A stretch of 44,952 bases of DNA from a virus, in the IMG/VR virus record IMGVR_UViG_3300031920_000114, positions 1 to 44,952 of that record. The stretch is one strand, 5' to 3'. Positions 1,155 to 43,746 of this stretch are shown here, piece by piece. The position numbers were made by a program, and so were the translations under genes. The notes beneath the pieces were generated by a model. It saw nothing but the letters and a program-made list of their open reading frames with translations, made no database searches and had not been told where the DNA came from. Numbering within the stretch: the stretch's first letter is position 1; each line of letters starts with the position of its first letter.

Positions 1155-1763
1155 CTACAACCTCATAGGCATAATCACCCCGGCAAGGTCTACGTTGGTG
1201 TGTGGGTCGTGCGCCTCGAACCGCACCGCACCGTCTTTATCTGTAATCATCAGCTTAACGCCCGTCGCTCCAACTGCCTTGCAGGCCTGCCCCAGTGCAA
1301 TCAAATATTCAGGGTTCACACCGACGAAGTGCACCTCCTTCCCCGAGTCGGCCTGCATGACCGCTTCAACGTCAGGATACGTCCCGTCTACCGTCTTCGA
1401 GTTTGTTACCTTCTCCACCTCCAAGTCCGTAGACACCAGCGACACTGCCTTGCTCGACGGCGACGAGATCACAATCGTCTGGTCAAGAATTGGCAGGCCG
1501 TCCTTCGTCGCGTTCCGGATTGCAGCATTGACCGCAGTGATAGGCACGATCTTGTCGTCCGTACCCTCGCAGACAGGCACCCCGTCGTTAAAAGGGAAGT
1601 CGTCCGTATCATGTTGCAGGTATGTCGCCTGCATCATAATGTGCCCGTTGGTCGTGGTCATTTTCTCCGCTCCCATGTGCACCCCGTTCAGGTAGTATCG
1701 AACGTCCTTTTGTGCGCAGCATTTAGCGAGTGCGGTGAGTGTTTGCTTGTTTGTCATTTTCAT
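1155..1763 (-). CDS. Compact sliding-clamp-like protein (DNA polymerase III beta-like), 202 aa
   Basis: A DNA sliding clamp tethers the replicative polymerase to DNA. The sequence shows several signatures of bacterial beta clamps in the right order: RYYLNG at 22-27, TNGH at 38-41 (TDGH in E. coli), VDGTYPD at 125-131 (VDGRFPDY), NPEYL at 150-154, MITD at 172-175, and a C-terminus of MPMRL identical to that of E. coli DnaN. At 202 aa it is far shorter than the usual 366-aa, three-domain subunit. It appears to keep domain II and a shortened domain III and to lack domain I. The start at 1763 has AGAGGGG upstream, inside a small hairpin. A six-bp-core palindrome site lies just upstream. It could be a working two-domain clamp or a host-clamp mimic. 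Confidence 0.75.
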   Translation of the reverse strand: MKMTNKQTLTALAKCCAQKDVRYYLNGVHMGAEKMTTTNGHIMMQATYLQHDTDDFPFNDGVPVCEGTDDKIVPITAVNAAIRNATKDGLPILDQTIVISSPSSKAVSLVSTDLEVEKVTNSKTVDGTYPDVEAVMQADSGKEVHFVGVNPEYLIALGQACKAVGATGVKLMITDKDGAVRFEAHDPHTNVDLAGVIMPMRL

Positions 1764-3224: not shown

Positions 3225-3240
3225 TTCTAACATGTTAGAA
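3225..3240. promoter_or_regulatory. 16-bp palindrome, site 5
   Basis: A perfect TTCTAACATGTTAGAA at the right edge of the ACTAGT repeat region, in the gene-free stretch. Confidence 0.75.
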
Positions 3241-3324: not shown

Positions 3325-3340
3325 ATCTAACATGTTAGAA
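3325..3340. promoter_or_regulatory. Palindrome, site 6 (ATCTAACATGTTAGAA)
   Basis: The same outer-base variant as site 3. It lies 100 bp from site 5 in the gene-free stretch, between the minus-strand terminator and the iteron region. Confidence 0.7.
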
Positions 3341-3443: not shown

Positions 3444-3459
3444 TTCTAACAGGTTAGAA
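3444..3459. promoter_or_regulatory. Palindrome variant, site 7 (TTCTAACAGGTTAGAA)
   Basis: A one-base variant of the palindrome that directly abuts the stop codon (3460-3462) of the histone-H1-like gene, between that stop and the terminator. Confidence 0.6.
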
Positions 3460-36242: not shown

Positions 36243-39200
36243 ATGGCGGACGACACACGGGTAGCATTTCCTAGGTTATCTGCGCTGCGGGCTGCGCGAG
36301 AACGGGGCGAAGCTCCGCCCGCTGATTCTCCTCCAAGCGCGTTTCCTAGGCTAGCTGCTATACGTGCAGCGGGGCGTGGGCCGCAACAGAACACGAGCAC
36401 CCTGCAGGACTTGGGCACCGACGTAAAGCGGGGCTTCCAAAGCATCCCCAGCGCGGCTACTGGCCTAGCTGACATACCGCTTAACCTGCTAGGTGGCAAC
36501 AACTACGTATCCCGTGGCGCGGACTACCTAGGCGATCTAACGGGGTTCGACCCTGACGGCTTTGCAAAGCAGGCGGAGTCAGAGTACTCAGAGGCAAGGC
36601 AAGAAGACATACAGGCTTTTGGCGAAGCGGAAGGCTTCACTGAGAGTGCATCCCACCTGCTACGTAACCCGGGGCATTTACTGGGTACGGTCGCAGAATC
36701 ACTGCCCTCTATGCTAGCGGGCGGAGCCATAGGCAAAGGCCTTAGCCTCGCTGCTAAAATGAGCGGCGTGGTTGCGGCTGGCGCTGGTGAAGGTGCTATA
36801 TCTGCGGGGCAGCAAATGTCAGGCCTGCAAGAACAAGGCGCAGACCCACAAGCTGCAGCGCTCGCTTCCCTCGCTACTGGCATCACTGTGGGCGCTGTGG
36901 GCGCTGGTGGCGGCACACTCGCACAGAAAATGGGCCTGCTCGATCCGGACTTGCTAGTAGCAGGCGTGGCTCGTAGCGTAGGCGATAAGGGTATGTCACT
37001 GGCTAAGCGGGCATCACTGGGCGCTGGGCGGGAAGCTGGCGAGGAAGGAATACAGTCTGCTGCGGAAGCAGTGCTCGCTAACGCGGCCTTAGATAAGCCA
37101 CTGGGCGAAGACGTTGGCAAGAGTGTCGCGGCTGGCGCGCTCGCTGGTGGAGTGCTTGGCGGGGTGACCAACCTCGGTGGCGGCAAGCAAGAGGCGCAGG
37201 TCGCTGAGGAAGTGCCCGCTGAGCCCGCTGAGCCTGTGGTGCCGTACAGCGAGGAAGTGCAGGCTATCGCTGATGCTGCTACTGGCCCCGCTACGAACCG
37301 CATGTTTAGTGACAAGCTCAGAGATCGCTTACTATCCTCCACCACTCGGGAAGAAGCAGACGAGAGCATTAAGCGCAAGTCAAAAGAGATACAGGAATCT
37401 ATCCGGGCAACCCGGTTCTATAACGACCTGCCTACCTCGGCTGAAAGTAAGGCGGACGAGGAGGCGCGGGCGGACGAAGTTGCGCAGGAAGAATCTGCGG
37501 TGGCGGATGAGAACGCAAACCCAGATATTGACGAGGCGCTGCTGGAGGAACTAGACGCGGAAAACGCTGCGGCTGTGCAGGCGTTCGTAGCTACTGGAGT
37601 ACTGGACGACGAGCTAAAGGACACCAAAGACGGCACACTTGTGCGCAAGGTGCAGGCTGAGCGGGACGCAGAAGCCGCTGCTAAAAAGGCGGGTGCCACG
37701 TTCGATAGTGCAGAAGAACCAACATCGGGGCGCACCTCTGCAGAGCAACTACCAAGCCTGCTGCGCACCGCCATGCAGAAAGCCAGAATAGACTCTGACG
37801 GAGTGCCGCAGAAAGAAGCCATGTCCAAAGAGGGGGCGCTGTCCTTGTACGGCCTAATCTCCGGGCAGACTGAGCGGACGGAAGACGCTGCCACCATCAA
37901 CGCATATAACGCTGCAGTGCGCGACGTTAAGACGGCTAAGACCGAGTTCCGGGAAGGGCTGAGCAACGTGATCGGCAAGAATGGAACTGCTAATGCGGAG
38001 ATCAGGGTGCGACGTAGCGTGGTTAAGAACGGCAAGCACAAGCACTACACCTATGTGCTGGAGCCAATCGACCCGAAGCTAAAGGCGTTCCTCGAAGGCA
38101 TTACTAAGATGCCGGACAACGTGCGCATTAAAGAATCTGTGCGCATTGCTATAACGAACACAGCCCGCAAGCTGTCTATAAAGCACAAGCTACCACAACT
38201 ACGAAAGCTCACGTCCTCGATAGTGGGCAGCACTGGCGCTGTGCAGCGAGCATACGCCCCGGGGGTAGTCACTAACCACGTTAAGCGCACCCGTAAGAAC
38301 ATGGAGGACCCGTTCGACAAGAGCAATGCAGCGGACCCGAAAACCATGTACAACCTGTTCGACACCCTGTCTACGCTGACAGGCAAGTATGACACGATCA
38401 GAGGGCACCTAGGCAAGCGCACAGAGGGACGGCTCACCAAAAAGGGCACGCTTACCTCCAGCGCCATAGACACCTCCCCAGACATGGAGATTACGCGTAT
38501 TGCTGACATAGAGGCGATACGCAATAAGAAAGGCCCCACGAAGGCGGAGAGCGCTCGCGTAGCTAAGTATGATGCAGACGTAGAGCACTCAATAGCGATG
38601 GCGAACATAGCGGCTAAGGGTGGCGCTGGGACGAACGTGGAAGGCCTGTACCAGATAACTGACGAGATCGATGCGCAACTGCGCAAGATAGAGCTGAGGT
38701 TCGGGCAGAAGAATGTCCTACGTGCTATGGAGCTGGGCAAAGAAGAGCTGTCAAAAACAACTAAGGCCAACCAGTCTAAGGCAGGCAAAGACACAAGCCC
38801 TGCGGTTCGGTTCAGCACCCTGTACCGGGACTACCGGGCAGGCGGGGTTAACTTCGGCATCGAGACTGCGGCGATCCGGCACACTAAGACACAGCAAAAG
38901 TCGCACCGGGAGACATACAAAGCCAAAGACTTTACTCCGGAGGCTGTGCGGTTTACCAGCGACGGGGCTAACGTAGAGAGAAAAGCTGGGCAGCTCGCTA
39001 CGCGCATCGAGGAGATCATCGAGGAGAAATCGCAAGAGCGAGCCTTCGCGGACACCGCTAAAGCTTTAGGGGTGGACCTGTCTAAGGGCACTGAAAAAAT
39101 GAAGGCCCGTGCGCGTAGCAGGGTAGCAAAAGAGCTTGATAAGAACCCGCGATACTACCCGCCTATGCAGATGCTCTTGGAGTCACTGAGCGGACGCATG

Positions 39201-42200
39201 AGCCCTACGACTACCCTCATGGCGCGGCACCTGCGGGGCATCATCCAGCAGAGCGCTAAAGCTATGCAGCTAGCACGGTCAGGCTCTACTGACCTACGCG
39301 TACTTGAGTTCGACGACTATATCGATAGTATAGACCTAGTTGTGCACCCGGAAGCCTCTAGGCCTGCCGTAGGCAGCAAGGGGCGCGCTGCAGGGATGTT
39401 TGAAACTGTGAACGAGGAGACAGGCCGACCTACTATCCACCTATGGCAGAACGGCGCGAACCCCAGAACAATAATACACGAGATGCTGCACGCTGTAACA
39501 GCAGGCATACTAGCGTCCCCCAACACCCAGACAGATAACCAGCGAGCACTTGTTGCTGATCTGGAAGCCTTGATGGGCGATGTTGTATCTACGCTCCCTG
39601 CAGAGCAAGAAAAGCTCAGCGCTATGTCTGCCGACATGCAAGCAGCGAGAGCCAAAGCTAAGAAGCAGGGCACAAAACTACACCGTACCCCAGCGGATAA
39701 GCAGCTCATGCGCGACCAGCAACGGCTAGTGCAGATACTCACCATCTTAAAGGGCAACGGCGGAGTAGACGAGTTTGTTTCCTACGGCATGACCGAGGTG
39801 GGTTTTTCAACGTGGATGAACGAGCGCAGCGCCCCGGCGGGCTTCGTTGGCAGCAAGCCAGCCAAGCAAGGGCAGTCATGGTGGCAGGTTTTCGCCCACA
39901 AAATTAAGCTGCTTATCGGTGGCGGTGTAGCTGCGATAAAAGACAACGTATTTAGCGAGTTCATCGACGCAACCTCTGGGCTACTCGGGGAAGTGTACCG
40001 CGCCTCCGACGTGGGCAACGACGTGTTCTCATTCCAACAGGGGCCTGCTACGCTCGACGCGGCTGCAGACTTCGGTAACTGGAAAGGGCAGTACGCCCCG
40101 GAAGAGGGCAAGGCGTCTAGCGGGGACTACTCGCAAGGACAACGGGACGTGGACAGGAACATAGCCGCGATACGGAAAAACACCAACGACAAAAAGCTTG
40201 AGGCTGCTAAGACTGACCAAAACTTGCGTGCTGCAGAAGAGCGCACACGAAAGAAAGGAGAGACAGCGGTAGGGCACCGTAAGAACAGTGCGGACATAAC
40301 TTTCGTAGACAAGCTTGAGCGCATGATGCTCGACGGCATGACTAACTTCGGCACCGGGGGCAGGTACACCAGCTATGAGCTATGGGCGAAGGAGCGACTG
40401 CTAGACCGCTCAGGCAACGCGATCAATACTGCGCTGGAGAATAAGAGTGATCGATGGCTCGTAACGATGGTGGGCAAGCTGCTTAGCAAGACAGTTGACC
40501 AGCTAGGCACCCCGATAGGCTTTCGTAACATCATGCACAGCTTCGAGGCAAACAGCGGTGGCGCACTGAACGCAGCATACGCAGCATACGAAGCCACGGC
40601 TTCTTTCAGCGATGACATCCAAGTAGGCATCATCGACTACATATATGACCGCGACGAAGCCCAGCTTACAGCGATGATAAACGACGAGGCCAAGTCCCGT
40701 ACTGTGCTGAACGTGGTCAAAGAGCTAGACGATCTGCTCGCCACAGCGAAGCGGCTCAACAGGGTGCATCCGAACCACCTAGACGACAGCCTTGCTGACT
40801 TCCTAGACCTAGCCAAAGGCGGCAGCTTCGTGCTCAAGACCAGCGCTAACATAGGTGCAATAAAACCTGTGTCCATATCTAAGAACCGCGTGCAAGTGGC
40901 AGGTGTTAGCAGTCTCAGGCTTATAGGCCGGGACGGCGTTGAGATAGAGGGCGACAGGTGGAAGGGCAAGAAATTCAACCGGGGAACAAACACTCCGGAA
41001 GGGCATGACGTGTTCATAGAAAGCGGGGCGGACGTATCCGTGTGGGACATATCCCGCGCCACGTTCATACCGGGGGACACACGCCCATACAGGGTGAACA
41101 GCGCTGCTAATAGCAACGGAGAGTTTACCCTGTCACGGCAGAAGACGCCGAAGGAACACAACTCAGAACAGCAAACCCTGTTCAGCGCCAGCACTAATAC
41201 GTCCTCAAGCAAGGACCGTGCGGTCGTTATGTCAGCGCTAACTGAGCTTATGCAGGACTGGGCGCACAGCATCGAGGGGTACAATGCAACTAAAAGCTTG
41301 CTCGACATGCAGGACGGGCTTCTCGAAGAAGACGGCACCGATAACAGGTTCATCCTAGACAACACCCCGGAAAACAAAGCTGCGCTTATGGAGGAGATAC
41401 CTGCATCGCGTAGGCTAGACTTCACTGAGCGGGATGAGGCGACTAGCCGTGAAGCGCAGAACCTACTGCGACTGCCGGGGTCATGGGTGCTGCTGCCTGA
41501 TAACACGGAGACTGAGGCGCTCATGGGTGACATGCGCGGCAAGTACGTGTCTGGGCCAGTCTACATGGCGATGCGTGACTTCTACGACAAAGAGCCCATC
41601 ATAAAGTCAGAGTCGTTCCGGGCAGCGATGGCTACGTGGAAAGTGAACAAGACAGCTCTGTCCACCACCGCACACGTAAACAACGTGCTGGGCAACGTGA
41701 CACTAGCGTACTACCACGACATCCCACCAGCCAACATAGCGAAGGCGTCTAAGGTAGTGCTGCGCGCTATGTTTAAGCCTGAGTCATTGGAGCTACCCCA
41801 GTTCGCTGAGGAGAAAGCGCTGTGGCAAGAGATGCAGAACATGGGTGTTACGCTCGCTGCAATCAAAACGGCTGACTTCGACCTAGAGTCAACCAAGTCT
41901 ATCTCGCAGTATTTAGAGGACAAGGCCAGCAGCAACAGGGGCTTGCTAGCGGTGTACACAGCGATGGAGACGGTACTGAGTAAGTCGCTAGACGCATACA
42001 GCAACCAAGACAACATATTTCGTCTGGCACTGTACATGACTACTATCCAGAACGACGTAGGGTTTCAGCAGACGAACGAGGCCACCGTCGAGCTAAAGCA
42101 GGAAGCTGCCCGGATAGCAACACAGGGCTTTGTGGACTATCGTATCCATGCTCCGTGGGTGCGCGCAGCCAGAGGCACCGTACTGCCGTTCGTGGCATGG

Positions 42201-42986
42201 CCTTACCGCATGGTGCCACTCATGTTTAAGCTTATGATTACGAAGCCGTGGAAGGCCGCTAATACAATCGCAACCATATCGGCGGTTAACGCTGCAGCCT
42301 ACGCGTTCCTAGGGGCAGGTGAGGACGACGAGGAGTACGAGCGAAGTGTGCAGCCAGAGTGGTATCAGAAAGGCGTTAGCTGGCTCCCCGGCGTGCCGTC
42401 AAATATCCGCATGCCGTTTGGCTCCCCAAGGGAAGACGCTACGTTCCTATCACTTAGCCGCTCAATACCGCTAGCGGACATAACAGACTTCTCAGGTAGT
42501 GGCCTGCCCGCTCTACTTAGCATCGGCGGCCCTGCAGGGATACTCGCCAGCGTAAGCTTTAACTATGACCCGTTCCGGGGCGAAGAGATTACCAACGGCA
42601 CCGAGGACGTGGCTGGATGGCTGCAGAAAAACGCGGAGTTCCTAGCTAAGGGCATAGCCCCCGGCGCGATCACCAACGCAATGCGGTTCGACACTAAGAT
42701 GGACGAGGTTGGGCCACTTGGGGAGGAGTATAATTTCTGGGTAGAAGCATCGAGGGCACTTGGCATAAGTATGTTTCAGATGAACATACCAGAAGCGGCG
42801 TACTCGAAGGATTTAAGTAGACAGGCAGTGGAACGAAGCTTTAAGATGGAGATGGGCAAACGCTGGCGGCATGAGCTGCGGCAGAAAGACCCAGATTTTG
42901 ACAGCGCTCTGGACGACCGAAGCGCATTTCAAGAGCGAATGATGCAGCACATGCAGGAATTAAACGGGGAATTTGGAGGAGAATAA
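36243..42986 (+). CDS. Giant polyvalent/ejection protein with zincin motif, 2247 aa
   Basis: It is the last large late gene and probably one huge internal protein ejected into the host. The N-terminal part (about 150-320) has alternating Gly/Ala hydrophobic stretches, like membrane-penetrating segments of ejection proteins (for example AGAGEGAISAGQQMSGLQEQ). A zinc-peptidase motif HEMLH lies at 1079-1083, and DEFVSYG at 1176-1182 may supply the third ligand. The C-terminal 500 residues resemble the end region of large polyvalent phage proteins (VNNVLGNVTLAYYHDI near 1810). The rest is mostly helical and polar. No RNA polymerase or lysozyme signature is visible. Confidence 0.7.
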   Translation: MADDTRVAFPRLSALRAARERGEAPPADSPPSAFPRLAAIRAAGRGPQQNTSTLQDLGTDVKRGFQSIPSAATGLADIPLNLLGGNNYVSRGADYLGDLTGFDPDGFAKQAESEYSEARQEDIQAFGEAEGFTESASHLLRNPGHLLGTVAESLPSMLAGGAIGKGLSLAAKMSGVVAAGAGEGAISAGQQMSGLQEQGADPQAAALASLATGITVGAVGAGGGTLAQKMGLLDPDLLVAGVARSVGDKGMSLAKRASLGAGREAGEEGIQSAAEAVLANAALDKPLGEDVGKSVAAGALAGGVLGGVTNLGGGKQEAQVAEEVPAEPAEPVVPYSEEVQAIADAATGPATNRMFSDKLRDRLLSSTTREEADESIKRKSKEIQESIRATRFYNDLPTSAESKADEEARADEVAQEESAVADENANPDIDEALLEELDAENAAAVQAFVATGVLDDELKDTKDGTLVRKVQAERDAEAAAKKAGATFDSAEEPTSGRTSAEQLPSLLRTAMQKARIDSDGVPQKEAMSKEGALSLYGLISGQTERTEDAATINAYNAAVRDVKTAKTEFREGLSNVIGKNGTANAEIRVRRSVVKNGKHKHYTYVLEPIDPKLKAFLEGITKMPDNVRIKESVRIAITNTARKLSIKHKLPQLRKLTSSIVGSTGAVQRAYAPGVVTNHVKRTRKNMEDPFDKSNAADPKTMYNLFDTLSTLTGKYDTIRGHLGKRTEGRLTKKGTLTSSAIDTSPDMEITRIADIEAIRNKKGPTKAESARVAKYDADVEHSIAMANIAAKGGAGTNVEGLYQITDEIDAQLRKIELRFGQKNVLRAMELGKEELSKTTKANQSKAGKDTSPAVRFSTLYRDYRAGGVNFGIETAAIRHTKTQQKSHRETYKAKDFTPEAVRFTSDGANVERKAGQLATRIEEIIEEKSQERAFADTAKALGVDLSKGTEKMKARARSRVAKELDKNPRYYPPMQMLLESLSGRMSPTTTLMARHLRGIIQQSAKAMQLARSGSTDLRVLEFDDYIDSIDLVVHPEASRPAVGSKGRAAGMFETVNEETGRPTIHLWQNGANPRTIIHEMLHAVTAGILASPNTQTDNQRALVADLEALMGDVVSTLPAEQEKLSAMSADMQAARAKAKKQGTKLHRTPADKQLMRDQQRLVQILTILKGNGGVDEFVSYGMTEVGFSTWMNERSAPAGFVGSKPAKQGQSWWQVFAHKIKLLIGGGVAAIKDNVFSEFIDATSGLLGEVYRASDVGNDVFSFQQGPATLDAAADFGNWKGQYAPEEGKASSGDYSQGQRDVDRNIAAIRKNTNDKKLEAAKTDQNLRAAEERTRKKGETAVGHRKNSADITFVDKLERMMLDGMTNFGTGGRYTSYELWAKERLLDRSGNAINTALENKSDRWLVTMVGKLLSKTVDQLGTPIGFRNIMHSFEANSGGALNAAYAAYEATASFSDDIQVGIIDYIYDRDEAQLTAMINDEAKSRTVLNVVKELDDLLATAKRLNRVHPNHLDDSLADFLDLAKGGSFVLKTSANIGAIKPVSISKNRVQVAGVSSLRLIGRDGVEIEGDRWKGKKFNRGTNTPEGHDVFIESGADVSVWDISRATFIPGDTRPYRVNSAANSNGEFTLSRQKTPKEHNSEQQTLFSASTNTSSSKDRAVVMSALTELMQDWAHSIEGYNATKSLLDMQDGLLEEDGTDNRFILDNTPENKAALMEEIPASRRLDFTERDEATSREAQNLLRLPGSWVLLPDNTETEALMGDMRGKYVSGPVYMAMRDFYDKEPIIKSESFRAAMATWKVNKTALSTTAHVNNVLGNVTLAYYHDIPPANIAKASKVVLRAMFKPESLELPQFAEEKALWQEMQNMGVTLAAIKTADFDLESTKSISQYLEDKASSNRGLLAVYTAMETVLSKSLDAYSNQDNIFRLALYMTTIQNDVGFQQTNEATVELKQEAARIATQGFVDYRIHAPWVRAARGTVLPFVAWPYRMVPLMFKLMITKPWKAANTIATISAVNAAAYAFLGAGEDDEEYERSVQPEWYQKGVSWLPGVPSNIRMPFGSPREDATFLSLSRSIPLADITDFSGSGLPALLSIGGPAGILASVSFNYDPFRGEEITNGTEDVAGWLQKNAEFLAKGIAPGAITNAMRFDTKMDEVGPLGEEYNFWVEASRALGISMFQMNIPEAAYSKDLSRQAVERSFKMEMGKRWRHELRQKDPDFDSALDDRSAFQERMMQHMQELNGEFGGE

Positions 42987-43441: not shown

Positions 43442-43746
43442 GGCACGGGTTCTAACATGTTAGAAGCTCTGGCGATCGCTCGCTTATCTTTCTCGAAGTC
43501 CGCCAGCTCTTTCAGCACCCGCTTCTCTTCCCTTGCTGCGGCGTTGCTCGCAGTACGTAGCTTCTTAGCCCGGGCTACCTTGGCGGGGAGTGACCACCAC
43601 TCAGGCGGAACGTCATGGGTGCCACGCATAAACTCATCAGCGGTAGCGTCCATCTCGAAGTGCTTTTCTTCCCTAGGCCAGTCTTCGCCTTGCTGGCTAA
43701 AAGCGCAGCAGTACGTGTAGTAACAGTCTGTGTAGTTGTGTGCCAT
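43438..43746 (-). CDS. Hypothetical right-cluster protein, 102 aa
   Basis: It is Cys/Tyr-rich at the N-terminus (NYTDCYYTYCCAFSQQGEDW) and basic and helical in the second half (KVARAKKLRTASNAAAREEK). The 16-bp palindrome overlaps its last codons, encoding SNMLE. The ATG at 43746 follows GGGAGGT and lies one base beyond the stop of the upstream gene. The function is unknown. Confidence 0.6.
   Translation of the reverse strand: MAHNYTDCYYTYCCAFSQQGEDWPREEKHFEMDATADEFMRGTHDVPPEWWSLPAKVARAKKLRTASNAAAREEKRVLKELADFEKDKRAIARASNMLEPVP
43450..43465. promoter_or_regulatory. 16-bp palindrome, site 8 (right cluster)
   Basis: A perfect TTCTAACATGTTAGAA in the far cluster, overlapping the 3' end of the 102-aa gene and lying nine bases upstream of the next start. 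Finding the same site in both minus-strand clusters links them to one regulator. Confidence 0.75.

Follow-up and report, generated by a model that had tools for sequence, protein, structure and literature searches.

Introduction

To our knowledge, every well-studied sliding clamp is a closed ring. In T4 gp45 and PCNA, each protomer consists of two full domains, or four half-domains, so that the trimer has twelve. A natural short version of the E. coli beta clamp, beta*, is described in papers of 1996 as a UV-inducible product of an internal start in dnaN which comprises domains II and III and reportedly forms trimers. The site by which clamps bind their partners is a drug target. In E. coli beta, the pocket for clamp-binding motifs comprises R152, L155, T172, G174, H175, R176, L177, P242, R246, V247, N320, Y323, V344, V360 and M362 to R365, while the dimer interface pairs I78, F106, K74, R96, R103 and R105 of domain I with I272, L273 and E298–E304 of domain III (PMC11139829). 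The clamp inhibitor Gp168 of phage Twort binds the DNA channel of the host DnaN (PMC11139829).

The closest described relatives of the gene presented here belong to PHROG 3007, a widespread and uncharacterised family with members in Vibrio phage X29, Yersinia phage P400 and Skatevirus and Roufvirus relatives. The public labels within PHROG 3007 are mixed: ‘RusA-like resolvase’, ‘DNA clamp protein’ (the label in X29) and ‘DNA polymerase III beta’ (in P400 and the Skatevirus and Roufvirus relatives, as ‘DNA polymerase III beta subunit’). We found no papers on the function of these proteins, and those on phage XM1 and BASEL are silent on the clamp. Nor did our search, outside which most subscription journals lay, reveal any prior description of the half-domain architecture, of the loss of the interface with retention of the pocket or of the FtsK-gamma fusions reported below. 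Here, we describe P0002, a new, divergent member of the family, and compare it with 40 relatives.

A compact beta-clamp-like gene and its relatives

The window, that is, the whole stretch of viral DNA analysed in this work, comprises 44,952 nt (IMG/VR record IMGVR_UViG_3300031920_000114). The gene of interest occupies positions 1155–1763 of the minus strand including the stop codon, with the ATG start at 1763 and the TAG stop at 1155, and encodes a protein of 202 aa. A ribosome-binding site, AGAGGGG, can be read on the same strand at 1773–1779, about 9 nt upstream of the ATG. The plus-strand reading of 1155–1763 is meaningless and gave no protein signal. An antisense open frame of 248 aa, longer than the clamp gene, runs along the plus strand at 1125–1871; the homology lies on the minus strand. 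The window yielded no RNA family and no tRNA.

An earlier, sequence-only reading of this DNA had noticed in P0002 the DnaN motifs RYYLNG, TNGH, VDGxYPD (here VDGTYPD) and the C-terminal MPMRL, and had proposed a beta-clamp ancestry for a protein little more than half as long as DnaN (202 aa vs. 366 aa in E. coli). The motifs are indeed present and, as the profile matches indicate, not by chance. P0002 matched PHROG 3007 at 2.5e-24 over residues 5–202 (profile positions 6–186 of 190) and PHROG 947, a phage processivity factor, at 7.5e-11. Used as a single sequence against solved structures, it retrieved bacterial beta clamps only (about 4e-6), and the profile search for a DnaN match that had been suggested beforehand as a check was positive, the 41-member family profile matching solved DnaN chains down to 6.7e-32. 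P0002 alone reached 15.3 bits with the Pfam family DNA_pol3_beta_2, under the cut-off of 27; among the 41 relatives, 34 matched this DnaN domain II family (PF02767, best 1.3e-13), and none matched PF00712 (domain I) or PF02768 (domain III). The second suggested check, that of the fold, gave an AlphaFold2 monomer model (pLDDT 84.8, pTM 0.84) built of three b-a-b-b-b half-domains, whose residues 1–202 superpose on residues 127–366 of E. coli beta with Z 14.7 and 2.7 Å over 174 residues (28% identity). Taken together, the profile, the alignment and the predicted fold allow us to conclude that P0002 descends from DnaN.

The relatives were collected in several ways. A translated search of phage records with P0002 found 14 phages, ten of which cover at least 80% of the query at about 24–29% identity, and outward searches from two relatives yielded 157 and 291 records, mostly of Salmonella, Escherichia, Klebsiella and Vibrio phages. 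In IMG/VR, the single-sequence search with P0002 returned nothing and a seven-sequence alignment was required; this alignment-based scan reported 153 relatives, and 80 of the 153 were fetched. Dereplication at 90% identity reduced the 80 to 42, and 40 of them together with P0002 make up the 41-member alignment (A2) to which the counts below refer. All 41 match PHROG 3007. The PHROG 3007 phage proteins, mostly of about 165–216 aa, have the same three half-domains and pocket motifs as P0002, which is only about 22–30% identical to the members found.

Since PHROG 3007 bears a RusA-like label and all the relatives match it, one could suppose that P0002 is a RusA-like Holliday junction resolvase. 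The data leave this idea a negligible probability: none of the 41 relatives matches RusA (PF05866, E 0.01) whereas 34 match DNA_pol3_beta_2, the fold matches are clamps, and among 27 carrier records RusA is encoded in a single one, there by a gene other than the clamp. The RusA-like label on clamp-like proteins was seen in PHROG 3007, in PHROG 12598 and in many RefSeq phage records, and is probably a spreading annotation error. Misleading or mixed labels of this kind on hundreds of public records hide a clamp family.

Half-domain architecture and the dimer interface

Alignment assigns each predicted half-domain of P0002 to a definite part of DnaN. The first, residues 1–48 (positions 1620–1763, minus strand; E2–5, H6–13, E27–30, E34–38, E42–48), is the N-half of domain II and is predicted with pLDDT >90 over most of its length. 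The second, about residues 68–135 (1359–1562, minus strand; E71–74, H75–85, E96–103, E106–113, E116–123), is the C-half of domain II, and the third, about residues 142–202 (1158–1340, minus strand; H151–164, E170–173, E180–186, E191–197), is the C-half of domain III. An assignment of the third half-domain to the N-half of domain III scored lower (110.8 vs. 134.7 for the C-half), conflicts with the C-terminal MPMRL and was rejected. Domain I is absent: the reading frame begins at the domain II boundary, the first residue of the model corresponding to E. coli 127.

Between the second and third half-domains, P0002 lacks the N-half of domain III. Of the 240 residues of E. coli beta 127–366, 174 are aligned with the model, so that about 66 lack a counterpart in P0002. 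The E. coli DnaN sequence serving as the reference conforms to the published numbering in its length and at all 31 landmark residues that were compared. When the family is aligned by MAFFT with domains II and III of E. coli DnaN, one large gap appears, at E. coli residues about 252–310, which is the N-half of domain III; the mean occupancy of this half across the 41 relatives is 0.11 vs. 0.89–0.92 for the other three. The spacing between the positions of P242 and M362 is 61–74 residues in all 41, compared with 120 in E. coli. The half-domain deletion is therefore common to 41 of 41 relatives, and domain I is absent in all. The earlier suggestion that P0002 lacks domain I and part of domain III was right, and the missing part can now be specified as the N-terminal half of domain III. 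P0002 comprises all of domain II and the C-half of domain III, so that three of the ring's twelve half-domains are present. Like beta*, it is a natural clamp version starting at domain II; beta*, however, retains the whole of domain III, half of which is gone from P0002.

These losses concern the parts that close the ring. On the domain III side of the E. coli dimer interface, I272, L273 and the E298–E304 group all fall in the N-half, and since domain I is also gone, P0002 lacks both sides of the native interface. Judging from the cited residue positions rather than from coordinates, the half-domains would follow one another round the ring in the order I-C, I-N, II-C, II-N, III-C, III-N. In this order, P0002 would represent a contiguous arc, II-C, II-N, III-C, or a quarter of the ring (90 degrees), even though the deletion lies in the middle of the sequence. 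A trimeric clamp like T4 gp45, which had also been proposed for this protein, finds no support here: with three half-domains per protomer, a trimer would have nine half-domains, not twelve, and both halves of the beta dimer interface are gone. The gp45 and PCNA proteins do share the clamp fold (PCNA superposes on the P0002 model with Z about 13 over 172 residues), but they form trimers of two-domain protomers, whereas P0002 carries beta-type motifs on one and a half domains.

Two other assemblies have to be weighed against the same evidence. P0002 might join the host DnaN in mixed rings or block rings as a poison subunit, as the ancestry and fold shared with the host clamp would permit; we find this most improbable, given that the I-C and III-N halves, which are the pairing surfaces of DnaN, are missing and the native interface is unavailable. 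Alternatively, P0002 may be a true sliding clamp of a new stoichiometry, with four protomers supplying twelve half-domains, loaded by the host loader and serving the host Pol III on phage DNA. The clamp fold speaks for such a ring, but with both native interface halves absent it would depend on a new interface, formed where the free edge of the C-half of domain II meets that of the C-half of domain III. We regard the new ring as unlikely, although a new interface could go unseen in a monomer model, which counts against a ringless reading; evidence on both sides of the new ring continues below.

The partner-binding pocket and the DNA-contact residues

All the published pocket residues map to the parts of DnaN that P0002 retains. 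RYYLNG (residues 22–27; positions 1683–1700, minus strand) includes the end of loop II and the pocket residues R152 and L155 (E. coli numbering); TNGH (residues 38–41; 1641–1652, minus strand) corresponds to T172, G174 and H175; VDGTYPD (residues 125–131; 1371–1391, minus strand) contains P242; and MPMRL (residues 198–202; 1158–1172, minus strand) supplies M362 to R365. Within the 41 relatives, R22, L25 and N26 of RYYLNG are invariant, a motif by which these relatives were found; T172 and G174 are 95–98% identical and H175 85%; P130 of P0002, the equivalent of P242, is invariant; and M362, P363 and R365 show 90%, 88% and 80% identity, respectively.

The conservation of the pocket was compared with that of the rest of the protein at 15 alignable positions, residues 148–157 (loop II) being left out because their motif had been used to find the relatives. 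The results clearly showed that the 15 pocket columns are far closer to E. coli (0.73 identity, 0.88 similarity over the 41 relatives) than the 123 other positions (0.16 and 0.40), and none of 50,000 random draws in a permutation reached as high a value. P0002 itself is identical to E. coli at 12 of the 15 pocket positions and at 25 of the 123 elsewhere. Some details count against the pocket reading: R176 and V344 are not conserved in the family, and H175 or G174 is replaced in 7 of the 41 members. Judged by residue conservation, the complete clamp-binding pocket nevertheless appears to be kept in P0002. This also bears on whether P0002 could be a decaying, functionless remnant of a captured dnaN, as its own score under the Pfam cut-off might suggest. 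Hundreds of phage records show the same architecture, with a pocket far better conserved than the rest, and such pocket-biased conservation requires selection; we consider a remnant scarcely credible.

The residues that contact DNA tell a more mixed story. The pore residue K198 is a DNA contact conserved in 87% of bacterial clamps, and D150 and R152 of loop II are essential in E. coli (PMC5042465). In contrast to DnaN, P0002 has T at the K198 position, and 23 of the 41 relatives have E or D there; together with the loss of the domain I DNA contacts, this argues against a new ring. Loop II (D150, R152, Y153, Y154), a part of which touches DNA, is on the other hand retained as in DnaN and is often more basic, with KK for HQ, which counts against a ringless reading. 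The invariance of D150 and R152 in the family favours a functional sliding clamp, with the caveat that the loop II motif was used to find the relatives. The pocket, too, is compatible with a new ring, where it would recruit the polymerase and the loader.

Genomic context

In the relatives, the clamp genes sit in replication/recombination modules, next to DnaB-like helicases, O-like initiators, DnaD-like helicase loaders, RecE-like and DnaQ-like exonucleases and CII-like regulators. A position beside helicases, initiators and loaders is a further point for the new ring. A survey of 27 carrier records, which include several complete genomes, revealed neither Pol III alpha nor Pol B in any of the 27 and no member of the clamp-loader family PF13177. 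Pol A was found in 5 of the 27, and one further divergent polymerase was recognised by PHROG only, showing that divergent phage polymerases can escape Pfam, which tells against the ringless reading. A regular pairing of the clamp with a phage polymerase was rejected, as only some carriers have a recognisable polymerase. Phage X29 encodes a DnaC-like helicase loader as well as an O-like initiator, a gene set that suggests the use of the host replisome. This DnaC-like protein also gave weak ‘clamp loader’ PHROG matches, for which a common AAA+ fold is the best explanation; a phage clamp loader in the 27 records was rejected. Clamp-binding motifs are not enriched in the open reading frames of the carriers (12 seen vs. 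18.3 expected), which points to host partners.

In the window itself, no recognised replication gene was found besides P0002, and the window may be a fragment. Three weak matches to clamp-binding motifs lie among its rightward, mostly structural genes and were not accepted as a phage-encoded partner.

Several relatives depart from the common plan. Two of them, L014 (2180–3082 of an IMG/VR contig) and L169 (7986–8894 of a Colwellia MAG), carry the clamp arc followed by a C-terminal FtsK-gamma winged-helix DNA-binding domain (FtsK_gamma, PF09397, at 5e-24 and 4.5e-25, respectively). The L169 clamp gene adjoins Erf-type, YqaJ/RecE-type and DnaQ-type genes, as judged by eye. Two smaller relatives, L175 (7887–8468, on a podophage-like contig that also encodes terminase and tail proteins) and L179 (7833–8450), by alignment also appear to lack the C-half of domain II. 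The L175 model (pLDDT 74.6 overall, <50 for residues 121–147) superposes on beta at a Z of about 12 to 13.6, with the II-N and III-C halves well predicted and a poor stretch between them. Tentatively, these two proteins seem to have been reduced further, to little beyond the pocket. Both kinds of relatives, those with FtsK_gamma and those apparently without yet another half-domain, speak against a new ring.

Variation was also seen at the C-terminus. In 18 of the 41 relatives a tail, often with W or F, extends past MPMRL (e.g., L022, L028, L051, L060, L066 and L080). An Ala-Ala C-terminus, which resembles a ClpXP-type degradation tag, occurs in 10 of the 41 relatives vs. 16 of 463 other open reading frames (Fisher p 9e-6, relatedness not corrected). 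L172 (7608–8690, Polynucleobacter) is a full-length, 360-aa divergent clamp matching PHROG 947 at 1.8e-53 and is possibly prophage-borne.

Discussion

On balance, we lean towards the view that P0002 is an arc of the beta clamp that has kept the partner pocket and shed the ring-closing pieces, and that it captures the clamp partners of the host rather than encircling DNA. A mimic capturing host partners, an idea also found in the sequence-only reading, would fit the evidence best: the pocket is kept, the ring parts are lost, clamp-binding motifs are not enriched in the carriers, and mostly no phage polymerase is recognised. From that earlier interpretation, the beta ancestry and the domain losses thus stand on the profile, alignment and fold, whereas the half-domain count and the lost interface leave the gp45-like trimer without support.

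As a monomer or small oligomer, P0002 would bind host proteins bearing clamp-binding motifs, candidate targets being the clamp-loader delta, Pol III alpha, Hda, repair polymerases and MutS/MutL. Used as a decoy, it would take such partners from the host clamp or fork; used as an adapter, it would deliver them to the complexes in which the phage replicates and recombines its DNA. The E. coli beta variant I272A, L273A, which is monomeric, binds delta about 50 times tighter than the dimer does and cannot tether Pol III (PMC11139829). By analogy, P0002 could strongly trap delta or other proteins that dock on the clamp. It may be likened to Gp168 as a phage protein that would interfere with the host clamp system; unlike Gp168, it is itself clamp-like, and its targets would be the partners of the clamp.

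The FtsK-gamma fusions are to be expected if the clamp arc itself does not hold DNA. A protein encircling DNA would hardly need such a domain, while a pocket that has to be delivered to DNA would. Phages of many hosts may, although we put this forward with some reserve, use ringless DnaN-derived pockets to capture or redirect host proteins with clamp motifs, the pockets sometimes being tethered to DNA via FtsK-gamma. If this is true, the docking function of the clamp has been separated from its sliding function in a widespread family, which would provide a natural, genetically encoded competitor for a highly connected binding site of the replisome and would let phages take over the replisome of the host with no need of a sliding ring. 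The question is directly testable, as members of the family are carried by phages Bas77–81, which grow on E. coli K-12.

Other features of the window

An operator-like palindrome, CTAACATGTTAG, lies at 1792–1803 (no strand), 29 bp upstream of the P0002 start codon. The window contains seven exact copies of it and one near copy vs. 0.07 expected, at 60–71, 1107–1118, 1792–1803, 2456–2467, 3227–3238, 3327–3338, 3446–3457 and 43452–43463. The copies are found among leftward genes at both ends of the record, thereby suggesting that the leftward region runs across the record ends, and the palindrome looks like the operator of an early regulon. Two of the palindromes sit in a leader that occurs twice in nearly identical form, at about 1–90 and 1050–1140 (CCCTACAGGCCATTGACTTCTAACATGTTAGAACCAGTGGC...GGAGATAAAGAGATGAAA); it is as though a single promoter and start region had been copied before two genes. 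The 2247-aa protein encoded at 36243–42986 of the window has no Pfam domain and matches PHROG 30335, a profile of 2900 positions with unknown function, only in part; it may be a large virion protein that is internal or injected.
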